A DNA stretch of 64,000 nt, taken from contig JAFLUA010000001.1 of NCBI GenBank assembly GCA_022508985.1, positions 248,001-312,000 of the forward strand. Reading direction: 5' to 3'. The DNA is from Muribaculaceae bacterium. Its GTDB lineage: Bacteria; Bacteroidota; Bacteroidia; Bacteroidales; Muribaculaceae. Shown here in pieces: positions 20,921 to 56,163 of the stretch; within the stretch, counting starts at the first letter, position 1, and each line of letters opens with the position of its first letter. Under the pieces are notes generated by a model. The model was not told the origin of the DNA. It made no database searches and saw nothing but the letters and a program-made list of their open reading frames with translations. A program made the translations under genes and the position numbers.

Positions 20921-22282
20921 ATGGCACAGAAACCCTCGACACCCAAAGGCACGCGCGATTTCACGCCTATTGAAATGGCGCGCCGAAACTATATCTTTGA
21001 TACTATTAGAGAAGTATTTCGACTATTTGGATATCGCCAGATTGAAACTCCGGCAATGGAAAATCTTTCCACACTTATGGGAAAATATGGAGAAGAAGGC
21101 GATAAACTTTTATTCAAAATTCTTAACTCAGGTGATTATCTCAAAGGCGTCGACCGAGAATTAATCGAAAACAATGACACGACGCGCCTTGCGGCAAAAC
21201 TGTGTGATCGTGGCTTGAGATACGACCTTACGGTGCCCTTTGCAAGGTTTGTTGTTCAACATAGAGACGAATTGCAGCTCCCATTCAAGCGCTTTCAAAT
21301 ACAGCCGGTGTGGCGTGCCGACCGCCCGCAAAAAGGCCGTTATCGTGAGTTTTATCAATGCGATGCCGATGTGGTAGGCTCTAACTCTCTTATCAATGAA
21401 ATAGAACTACTACAGATGGAAGACCTCGTGTTTTCTCGTCTTGGCATAAATGTTGCAATAAAACTCAATAACCGTAAGGTGCTTGCCGGAATTGCTGAAT
21501 TGATTGGAGAACCCGACAAACTCATTGATATAACGGTCGCGATAGATAAAATCGACAAAATTGGCATTGAAAAGGTCAATGAAGAGCTATCTGACAGAGG
21601 ATTGAGCCAACAAGCGATAACGGCGTTACGACCAATCCTCGAGATTGACGGAACAGGGACGGAGCGGCTTAATAAACTTGCAACATTGCTCGCACCAAGC
21701 GAAGTCGGAACAAAAGGTGTAGAAGAGTTGCGTACGGTATTTGAAGGTACGCTTGCTCTCGGCCTTAAAGCACAACTCGATATCGATGTATCCCTGGCCC
21801 GTGGATTGAATTATTATACTGGAACAATAATCGAAGTTAAAGCTCTCGATACCGAAATCGGAAGTATCTCGGGCGGTGGTAGATACGACAACCTTACCGG
21901 CGTTTTTGGTCTTGATGGCATTTCAGGTGTGGGCATTTCATTTGGCGCTGATAGGATATATGATGTGCTAAACGCGCTTAATCTGTTCCCTGAGGAGGCG
22001 TTGAAAACGACACAAGTTTTATTTGCTAATTTTGGACAGGCCGAAGCCGATGCATCGTTGAAATTGATTAAGCAACTTCGAGTTAATGGTATTTCGGCCG
22101 AAATTTATCCTGACGCATCAAAAATGAAAAAGCAAATAGGATATGCCGACGCTATCGGAGTGCCGTATTTCGCAATCGTAGGCGAAAGTGAACTCGCCGA
22201 AGGCATGGTTACCATTAAGAATATGGCCGATGGTACGCAAACGTCAATAGAAGCCGAAAAACTTGTAGATTTCTTCTCATGA
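20921..22282 (+). CDS. hisS: Histidine--tRNA ligase
   Basis: A 453-residue class II aminoacyl-tRNA synthetase that charges tRNA-His. Visible are [12 protein letters not shown] at the start, [12 protein letters not shown], motif 2 in [21 protein letters not shown], the His-specific [15 protein letters not shown], motif 3 near SFGADRI, and a C-terminal anticodon-binding domain (about 360-453). Length and order are normal for Bacteroidota. It is followed directly by the promoter of a structured RNA. Confidence 0.98.
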
Positions 22283-22283
22283 A

Positions 22284-22315
22284 TTTGCATAAATGAACAA
22301 ATTCGTATAACTTTG
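22284..22315 (+). promoter_or_regulatory. Strong consensus promoter of the RNA after hisS
   Basis: TTTG (22284-22287), a 20-bp spacer and TAACTTTG (22308-22315) match the Bacteroidota -33/-7 promoter exactly. The start site is expected near 22321. The -33 box begins one base after the hisS stop codon. Confidence 0.85.
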
Positions 22316-22320
22316 TGTTA

Positions 22321-22580
22321 AAGTAACAGAGGAAAGTTAGAGAACTTTTACCCAATAGCCACATCAAAGTAGATTGGGAAACTCTTCAAATTATTATGAA
22401 ATGCCGAGACATGCGAGCCGACCAATGGCGGGCCTCAACGACAGTAATTGTCGGTGCCACAGTGCCGGAGGATTACAAAGGTCGGTGAGCACTCAAACCC
22501 TGTCTTATCGGAGTTTCATCGCATCCTTTGGTGTGGACTTTATAGTGTCGCAGTGCGTAAAAGCATTGCGGCATTTTTTT
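22321..22580 (+). ncRNA. Structured RNA of about 260 nt, candidate 6S-like RNA
   Basis: An RNA unit framed by a consensus promoter and an intrinsic terminator. Long-range pairings form a rod: 22359-22369 with 22526-22536 (11 bp), 22396-22401 with 22514-22519, 22404-22407 with 22508-22511, 22408-22411 with 22501-22504, and 22418-22423 with 22480-22485. Between the last two stems is an asymmetric bubble (22412-22417 against 22486-22500). The apical part holds CCTC/GAGG (22433-22436 with 22468-22471) and CGACA/TGTCG (22439-22443 with 22449-22453). A rod with a central bubble is the hallmark of 6S RNA, and GGTCGGTGAGCA resembles part of the Escherichia coli 6S sequence. The identity is inference; the ORF at 22374-22637 runs through the terminator and is rejected. 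Confidence 0.7.
22549..22580 (+). terminator. Terminator of the RNA after hisS
   Basis: CGCAGTGC (22549-22556) pairs with GCATTGCG (22563-22570), with one G-T pair and a six-base loop, followed three bases later by seven T residues. Confidence 0.85.
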
Positions 22581-22652
22581 TATTTGTGTAGCTTAATGTA
22601 TTTGATTATATTTGCTTGCCATTTGGATAAATGGTAATAACAATCGGTGTAT

Positions 22653-23996
22653 ATGAAAAAAGTAATAACATACGGAACTTATGATTTACTGCACCAAGGG
22701 CATATAAACCTACTCACACGAGCAAAAGCTCTTGGCGATTATCTTATTGTAGGAGTTACGTCGGATAATTTTGATAGAAACAGAGGAAAACTTAATGTGC
22801 GCAATAATGTACTTGAGCGCATAGAAGCAGTGAAAAACACCGGATTAGCCGATGAGATAATAATAGAGGACTATGACGGACAAAAAATCGACGATATTCA
22901 GAAGTATGAAGTCGATGTATTTACGGTAGGTTCGGATTGGGTGGGCAAATTTGACTATTTGCAAGAGTTTTGCGAAGTGATATATCTGCCGCGAACAGAA
23001 GGCGTGTCTTCTACAATGCTTCGCTCCGCCGATACAATAAATATAAAGCTCGGTGTCATCGGGACGGGGCGTATGGCCAATCGCTTTATGCCGGAATCAA
23101 AGCACGTAAGTGGTGTTGAGATTGTATCGGCTTATAATCCTATAGATAAAATTGGCCTCTCAGACTTCTCTTCGAGGTATGATGTCAAAGATTTTGAGAA
23201 TCTTGAAAAATTTTTAGAAAGTGTTGATGCAGTCTATATAGCATCACCACATCTTAGCCATTATTCATATATAAAATCGGCACTTGAGGCAAATAAGCAT
23301 GTGCTTTGCGAAATCCCCATAGTGCTGTCCAAAGCAGAGGCGGAAGAGTTGTATTCTCTTGCCGAATCACGTCATTTAGTGCTTCTTGAAGCGAGTAAAA
23401 CGGCTCATTGTCCGGCGTTTAACCATCTCATTAACATCGTAAAAGGTGGCGCTATCGGCACGGTTATAGATGTTACGGCATCTTTGTCGAAACTTGTGAG
23501 TGGAGAATTGCGAGAACTTGACCCCCAACAAGCCGGAGGCTCGATGACCGAACTCGCTCATTTCCCATTGTTGTCGATAGTTAAGCTTCTTGGAAAAGAT
23601 TTTACCGATATCTCGTTCTTCTCCAAGTTTGAAAACGGAGTGGATATTTTCACAAGGGGCATTATTAATTATGAACACGCGGTGTCGTCGATAACTCTTG
23701 GCTTGGGTGTTAAAACAGAAGGCAACCTCGTTATCTCCGGTACGAAAGGTTATGTTTATGTGCCCGCGCCGTGGTGGCTTACCGACTTTTTTGAAGTGCG
23801 TTACGAAAATCAAAACCTCAATAAAAAATATTTCTATTCATTCGATGGCGATGGCCTTAGATATGAATTACAGGAGTTTATATCAATGATAAGAAACAAT
23901 CGATTAACATCACATCGTCTTCGTCGTGAGGAGTCGATAGTTATAGTATCGGTAATTGAAAAATTCCTTAACTCAGAAAACGTTAAGCAACTATGA
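22653..23996 (+). CDS. Cytidylyltransferase-like / Gfo-Idh-MocA oxidoreductase fusion
   Basis: About 447 residues from ATG at 22653; a GTG two codons earlier is an alternative. Residues 1-130 form a nucleotidyltransferase domain like glycerol-3-phosphate cytidylyltransferase: TYGTYDLLHQGHINLL (HxGH motif), then YLPRTEGVSSTMLR (RTEGxS(S/T)T). Residues 135-447 form a Gfo/Idh/MocA-type dehydrogenase, with GVIGTGRMANRF as the dinucleotide-binding motif and CEIPIVLSKAEAEEL. The C-terminal part has the expected alpha/beta substrate domain. The likely role is making an activated polyol phosphate for a surface glycan. It overlaps the next SDR gene by four bases. Confidence 0.88.
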   Translation: MKKVITYGTYDLLHQGHINLLTRAKALGDYLIVGVTSDNFDRNRGKLNVRNNVLERIEAVKNTGLADEIIIEDYDGQKIDDIQKYEVDVFTVGSDWVGKFDYLQEFCEVIYLPRTEGVSSTMLRSADTINIKLGVIGTGRMANRFMPESKHVSGVEIVSAYNPIDKIGLSDFSSRYDVKDFENLEKFLESVDAVYIASPHLSHYSYIKSALEANKHVLCEIPIVLSKAEAEELYSLAESRHLVLLEASKTAHCPAFNHLINIVKGGAIGTVIDVTASLSKLVSGELRELDPQQAGGSMTELAHFPLLSIVKLLGKDFTDISFFSKFENGVDIFTRGIINYEHAVSSITLGLGVKTEGNLVISGTKGYVYVPAPWWLTDFFEVRYENQNLNKKYFYSFDGDGLRYELQEFISMIRNNRLTSHRLRREESIVIVSVIEKFLNSENVKQL

Positions 23997-25528: not shown

Positions 25529-25600
<72 letters not shown>

Positions 25601-56131: not shown

Positions 56132-56163
56132 TTTGCATGATTAAATTTTATTGTTTAACTTTG
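56132..56163 (+). promoter_or_regulatory. Consensus promoter of the HTH regulator
   Basis: TTTG (56132-56135), a 20-bp spacer and TAACTTTG (56156-56163) form a full-consensus promoter. The ATG at 56194 lies 31 bp after the box. Confidence 0.85.

Follow-up and report, generated by a model that had tools for sequence, protein, structure and literature searches.

The window, that is, the whole stretch of 64,000 nt that was analysed, carries on its + strand a structured RNA in the interval between hisS, whose stop lies at 22282, and a gene at about 22647–23996 in which a cytidylyltransferase-like domain is fused to a Gfo/Idh/MocA oxidoreductase. A cmscan search of the whole window returned only two matches above cut-off, a tRNA at 25529–25600 and, at 22357–22544 (+), the Rfam family RF01693 (Bacteroidales-1), matched over its full length (model positions 1–179 of 179, 113.8 bits, E 4.3e–18). 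The score exceeds the gathering cut-off of 60 bits, and the Bacteroidales host, the presence of the RNA in relatives and its single copy all agree with membership in this class. Rfam itself labels RF01693 with '6S-Bacteroidales RNA suggested'. The preliminary description of this DNA had offered a 6S-type RNA or, alternatively, Bacteroidales-1, and in view of the match and the label its two suggestions come to the same thing. Of the two covariance models that it proposed to run, the Bacteroidales-1 model finds the locus and the 6S model RF00013 does not: between 22150 and 22720, at E up to 10, three further Rfam families appear, all far under their cut-offs, and RF00013 is not among these.

The RNA appears to be transcribed alone, from its own housekeeping promoter to its own terminator. 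A promoter of the Bacteroidetes sigma-A type occupies 22284–22315 (+), with TTTG at 22284–22287 followed after 20 nt by TAACTTTG at 22308–22315; as had been pointed out before, it starts one base past hisS, and it is an exact match to the consensus TAnnTTTG with TTTG near –33 given in passages of PMC7366714. The pattern TTTG-N20-TAnnTTTG occurs four times on the + strand of the 64-kb window and not at all on the – strand. One further copy, starting at 22583, just past the terminator, provides the next gene with an exact promoter of its own, and two others lie at 56132 and 58558. A sigma-70 scan does not list the promoter at 22284–22315, as expected since it is of a different type. Transcription would start at about 22320, and the 5′ leader, 22320–22356 (+), is predicted to fold into a small hairpin at 22332–22349. 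In relatives the inferred start and the rod are 6–98 nt apart (median 35), therefore the leader lies outside the conserved RNA and may be trimmed; we consider 5′ trimming of the precursor probable. In E. coli the leader of 6S RNA is trimmed. On the other side, the intrinsic terminator reported in the preliminary description is indeed there at 22544–22581 (+), a stem of 13 pairs (22544–22575) followed by a T tail, so that the predicted transcript framed by promoter and terminator has about 260 nt.

These signals recur across the family. We collected 115 loci, namely those of all 110 matching family genomes (the window's own included) and five of the same order. TAnnTTTG is found within 130 nt upstream of the rod at 108 of them, compared with 445 of 5488 equally long background blocks taken from the same loci, coding DNA included. 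Among the 113 loci with 170 nt of upstream DNA, 106 have the –7 element, which is preceded by TTTG at a distance of 17–23 nt in 65 of the 106 and of exactly 20 nt in 57. A T-run located from 12 nt before to 80 nt after the end of the rod accompanies 90/115 loci versus 656/3847 background blocks.

The fold of 22325–22580 (–86.3 kcal/mol, z –4.58) was equalled by none of 200 shuffles, while the rod alone gives z –2.97 with two of 200 shuffles as good. Its structure was assessed on an alignment of 61 rows: 56 family sequences mutually less than 82% identical, the window included, which were retained from 110 (54 dropped; the other family sequences have identities to the window of 0.58–0.80), plus five of the same order. 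The rod comprises 36 pairs, and 94.8% of the cells are paired across the 61 sequences. Changes on both sides were seen in 20 of the 36 pairs as against 11.1 in shuffles (sd 1.5), and the covariation score was 0.253 versus 0.133; not one of 500 shuffles reached the observed value on any of five rod measures. Sliding the partners by 1–3 columns reduces rod pairing to 38–50%. The rod, including its closing stem, is thus supported by covariation in this alignment, and the rod with an asymmetric central bubble that had been drawn from the single sequence holds up, with bubble strands of 19–22 and 15–17 nt among relatives.

The closing stem joins 22359–22369 to 22526–22536 (+); seven of its 11 pairs are doubly changed and 95.8% of its cells are paired. 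It is followed by the bubble-border stem, in which GAAACUC (22378–22384) pairs with GAGUUUC (22511–22517), with 97.7% of cells paired and four of seven pairs invariant. The central bubble (+ strand, as is the whole rod) consists of a 5′ strand of 21 nt at 22385–22405 and a 3′ strand of 16 nt at 22495–22510. Above it, the 5′ side of the apical arm (22406–22434) ends in the conserved internal-loop strand AAUGGCGGGCC (22424–22434), and the 3′ side (22470–22494) is made of the loop strand GGAUUACAAAG (22470–22480), the arm stem and CUC (22492–22494), which pairs with GAG at 22406–22408. In the main arm helix 10 of 12 pairs are doubly changed, and loop strand AAUGGCGGGCC is mostly invariant or nearly so. 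We also observed that AAUGGCGGGCC and GGAUUACAAAG, both strongly conserved, face each other in the apical arm. Both border stems, GAAACUC/GAGUUUC and GAG/CUC, show almost no variation, so little covariation is to be seen in either. For the upper border, GAG/CUC is 100% paired and nearly invariant, and the other option, GACA/UGUC, has 92.9% of cells paired and one doubly changed pair; a first version of the structure, with another pairing at this border, was 91.6% paired, also with 20 doubly changed pairs. It should be noted that GAG/CUC and its neighbours were taken from RNAalifold on the same alignment, so the upper part of the rod is not independent of that program; the closing stem and GAAACUC/GAGUUUC were fixed beforehand from the single-sequence fold, and RNAalifold alone recovers most of both. 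Compared with the Rfam consensus of RF01693, which pairs the apical part only and, of its 179 positions, leaves about 54 at the start and 52 at the end unpaired, the present structure adds the 11-pair closing stem and the bubble-border stem. In this respect the two structures differ, and in nothing essential; the window RNA resembles Bacteroidales-1 (Weinberg et al. 2010, PMC2864571) in its full-length match, in the order of its host and in its conserved sequence blocks.

Open frames do exist within the RNA, one of 87 codons from TTG and one of 30 codons from an ATG at the bubble edge, but none is conserved among the 61 aligned relatives, in keeping with the earlier remark that the interval has no coding frame. 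That a small protein is encoded here, starting at the bubble-edge ATG and spanning 30 codons in the window, could be argued from the frequency of long open frames: a + frame at least 95% stop-free is found at 68/115 loci and in 38 of the 61 aligned sequences, as against 12% of letter shuffles. However, these 38 frames are not one frame (26, 8 and 4 relative to the 5′ block; 21, 9 and 8 relative to the 3′ block), the ATG is kept in only 32 of the 61 relatives, where the frames from it run for 5–58 codons, and sequence changes follow the base pairs of the rod. Rod lengths modulo 3 are likewise spread (46, 36 and 33 of 115). We give a protein-coding function hardly any credence.

RF01693 is a regular component of the family's genomes. 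It was found in 110 of the 119 drawn, own genome included, at one place each and always above the cut-off, and in 91 of the 92 near-complete ones; the nine genomes in which it is missing include one near-complete assembly (G069) and eight of 68–87% completeness. No second copy is present in the window's own genome, where the next best match has 19.2 bits; sub-threshold Rfam matches elsewhere in that genome, including one to RF01685 on contig 12 (25.2 bits), were taken as chance. In an even draw of 395 genomes from the phylum, 12 RF01693 matches were obtained at E 0.001 or better, of which six exceed the cut-off, one in the own genome and five in other genomes of its order. No genome of the own order occurs among the unmatched rows listed, which leave a further 363 unmatched rows unlisted.

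The surroundings of the gene are variable. The 227 neighbour proteins of 121 loci form clusters that at the largest have 18, 18 and 12 members; the two with 18 are an ABC-F-like ATPase (by eye) and ribosomal protein L20 (by Pfam on its start). When 70 loci from named genomes are added (191 in total, partly overlapping), rplT lies in the DNA around 58, not always adjoining the RNA. hisS is found upstream only in the window and at two of the 70 named-genome loci; at the other 120 loci both hisS and a homologue of the downstream protein are absent from the DNA examined (mostly 1.5–1.6 kb on each side, in some cases shortened by contig ends, four with less than 300 nt upstream), and in the comparison of neighbour proteins across the 121 loci the downstream protein clusters with no other. 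The hisS neighbourhood was therefore rejected as evidence for 6S identity, its linkage being rare. The preliminary description had also proposed to look for covariation in orthologous hisS 3′ regions: the stems do covary in 61 related sequences, and orthology of hisS 3′ regions hardly applies, as hisS is rarely the neighbour.

The position between two genes of the same strand, together with the terminator, might suggest a cis element, either a riboswitch or attenuator of the cytidylyltransferase–oxidoreductase gene or a part of the hisS 3′ UTR. Against this, the RNA and the next gene each have a promoter, that of the next gene being exact and lying past the terminator, and neither gene accompanies the RNA at the other 120 loci, with hisS at just the two named-genome loci mentioned; the chance that we are dealing with a cis element is accordingly minute. 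Variable neighbours and the next gene's own promoter make it most likely that the RNA is a free-standing gene acting in trans.

A connection to 6S RNAs is provided by the flavobacterial class 6S-Flavo (RF01685). Sub-threshold RF01693 matches of 38–41 bits (<60) were found in six genomes from f6 and f7, two further families of the class, and in 6/6 an RF01685 match lies inside the same place on the same strand, three times above the RF01685 cut-off and three times below it (49–50 bits). RF01685 matches 49 of the 395 genomes of the phylum draw at E 0.001, and 19 of these exceed its cut-off; 43 of the 49 are not reached by RF01693 at the same E, and no genome in the draw exceeds both cut-offs. 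6S-Flavo shares with Bacteroidales-1 the AAACUC/GAGUUU sequences that border the bubble and, on the 3′ strand of the bubble, AAA..C.UGU or something close to it; its closing stem, too, looks comparable by eye. The apical motif of Bacteroidales-1 (AUGGCG[C/U]GC, [A/G]GAUUACA) occurs within the 6S-Flavo frame at 5/5 f6 loci and at 0/7 of the f7 loci read (one row was flagged only via a match beyond the RNA), thus f6 forms a bridge between the two classes. 6S-Flavo differs from the window RNA in that its model does not score the window locus, in its genomic neighbours and in the absence of the apical motif from f7. With regard to the model, membership in RF01685 would take more than 85 bits, and the window locus gives no match even at E up to 10, the best one in the own genome lying elsewhere (25.2 bits); in the five same-order genomes RF01685 reaches the RF01693 place once, at E 2.3. 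RF01693 shows no clan in the Rfam search output.

As to the neighbours, 12 of the 49 loci matched by 6S-Flavo were read, six coincident with RF01693 and six others; by tblastn with queries from one locus (L250) all 12 have zapA upstream and, downstream, a gene that we take to be rny. The start of the zapA query matches Pfam ZapA, and that of the rny query matches no Pfam family. Among the 191 loci this flavobacterial-type zapA and rny neighbourhood is confined to the six of flavobacterial type, and the remaining 185 gave no such match; it was not found at the Bacteroidales loci, where rplT is frequent instead, and the flavobacterial zapA query finds nothing in the stretch around rny of the window's genome. 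The zapA–rny setting of the 6S-Flavo loci (L152–L157, L248–L253) recalls the zapA–ssrS arrangement of proteobacteria. In E. coli K-12 ssrS directly follows zapA, and passages of PMC7641849 report a zapA–ssrS array from beta- and gamma-proteobacteria.

The relation to E. coli 6S RNA itself is less direct. E. coli ssrS resembles the window RNA in length (183 nt); it differs in that the window locus has no RF00013 match and lies outside the zapA–ssrS–fau arrangement. E. coli 6S RNA is a rod with a central bubble, and its way of working is presumably like that of the window RNA. RF00013, membership in which requires more than 46.4 bits, gives no match to the window RNA at E up to 10, nor does it find anything at this E in the own genome or, in 11 related genomes, at their 6S loci; across these 12 genomes it hits just one fragment, away from the 6S loci (E 2.3), although it does give matches in 8 of 14 control genomes. 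The claim that GGTCGGTGAGCA looks like a part of the E. coli 6S sequence proved mistaken, since this string is absent from ssrS and the longest piece in common, GGTGAGCA, has 8 nt. By eye 11 of 12 letters match at one place, and we took the likeness as accidental because the first part of GGTCGGTGAGCA falls in the most variable stem of the family. One could imagine that Bacteroidales-1, 6S-Flavo and proteobacterial ssrS are orthologues going back to one ancestral gene linked to zapA. The almost invariant apical module, in which AAUGGCGGGCC faces GGAUUACAAAG, would then be an addition of the Bacteroidetes branch that canonical 6S does not have, and it may bind either a portion of the polymerase peculiar to Bacteroidetes or some other protein. 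This scenario is tentative, and we would rather bet against it.

Does the RNA act as a 6S RNA? In shape, a rod in which a central bubble separates a long closing stem from an apical arm, the RNA agrees with the functional class, and homology to accepted 6S RNAs exists indirectly via 6S-Flavo, not directly with RF00013. A Bacteroidales-specific rod-shaped sRNA of another function, for example one that pairs with other RNAs or sequesters a protein, would account for the missing RF00013 match, for the fact that the most conserved parts include the apical loop AAUGGCGGGCC/GGAUUACAAAG, which a pure promoter mimic does not need, and for a bubble that contains no sequence like the –7 element. On the last point, a mimic of TAnnTTTG in the 3′ bubble strand is indeed unsupported, 58 of the 61 sequences matching at 3/6 positions and three at 4/6 where the bubble begins, in comparison with 491 of 11180 octamers (4.4%) in the same RNAs that reach at least 4/6. 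The corresponding octamer of six 6S-Flavo sequences matches at 5/6 in one, 4/6 in three and 3/6 in two, which was noticed post hoc and is suggestive at most. Such an sRNA is nevertheless hard to reconcile with the coincidence with 6S-Flavo in 6/6 genomes, with the bubble-border sequences common to both classes and with the pRNAs reported for Bacteroides 6S RNA in passages of PMC7366714, and we judge it improbable. Rfam's own label and the coincidence with 6S-Flavo loci in related families lead us to read Bacteroidales-1 as, most likely, the 6S RNA of Bacteroidales. For the window this means, with a probability of about nine in ten, that the bacterium, a member of Bacteroidales, carries here its one 6S RNA gene, complete with promoter and terminator. 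The rod of the RNA would hold the polymerase by means of its bubble, as analogy suggests.

6S RNA is a rod-shaped RNA thought to restrain RNA polymerase. By analogy with its relatives elsewhere, the bubble of the window RNA would imitate melted promoter DNA, and, when nutrients are scarce, the RNA would occupy the polymerase that carries the primary sigma factor. The 5′ bubble strand is presumed to be the pRNA template because of what is known of E. coli 6S RNA: once nucleotides return, the polymerase could use this strand, together with the stem next to it, to make a short product RNA, with synthesis probably starting near the border between the bubble and the GAAACUC stem (around 22385–22386) and running into the closing arm. 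The product might then remodel the rod and free the enzyme.

Parts of this picture are already in print. Passages of a dRNA-seq study of B. thetaiotaomicron (PMC7366714), which do not name RF01693, report detection of a Bacteroides 6S RNA with evidence for two pRNA classes. Bacteroidales-1 has been in print since 2010 (Weinberg et al. 2010, PMC2864571), and the conclusions of that paper describe 6S-Flavo as an RNA that does the work of a class already known. One Bacteroidales-1 RNA is annotated per strain in P. gingivalis, according to a section of PMC5771137, and sections of PMC5581868 and PMC9723704 mention a 6S RNA of Flavobacterium psychrophilum and hold nothing further on the class. A uniting of Bacteroidales-1 with 6S-Flavo was not found in those parts of the open-access literature that our search covered; Wehner et al. 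2014, a likely place for it, falls outside that scope. Because the class has been in print since 2010 and the latter work is the likely place of the family union, the finding concerns a known RNA class and we file it as already known.

The window RNA is, in this sense, one more instance of a known housekeeping RNA. Our analysis completes the rod structure of Bacteroidales-1, connects this class with 6S-Flavo by sequence and by position, and brings out the conserved apical module. The primary sigma factor of Bacteroidetes is unusual, as stated in the passages of PMC7366714 at hand, and this makes promoter mimicry by their 6S RNA a testable question.
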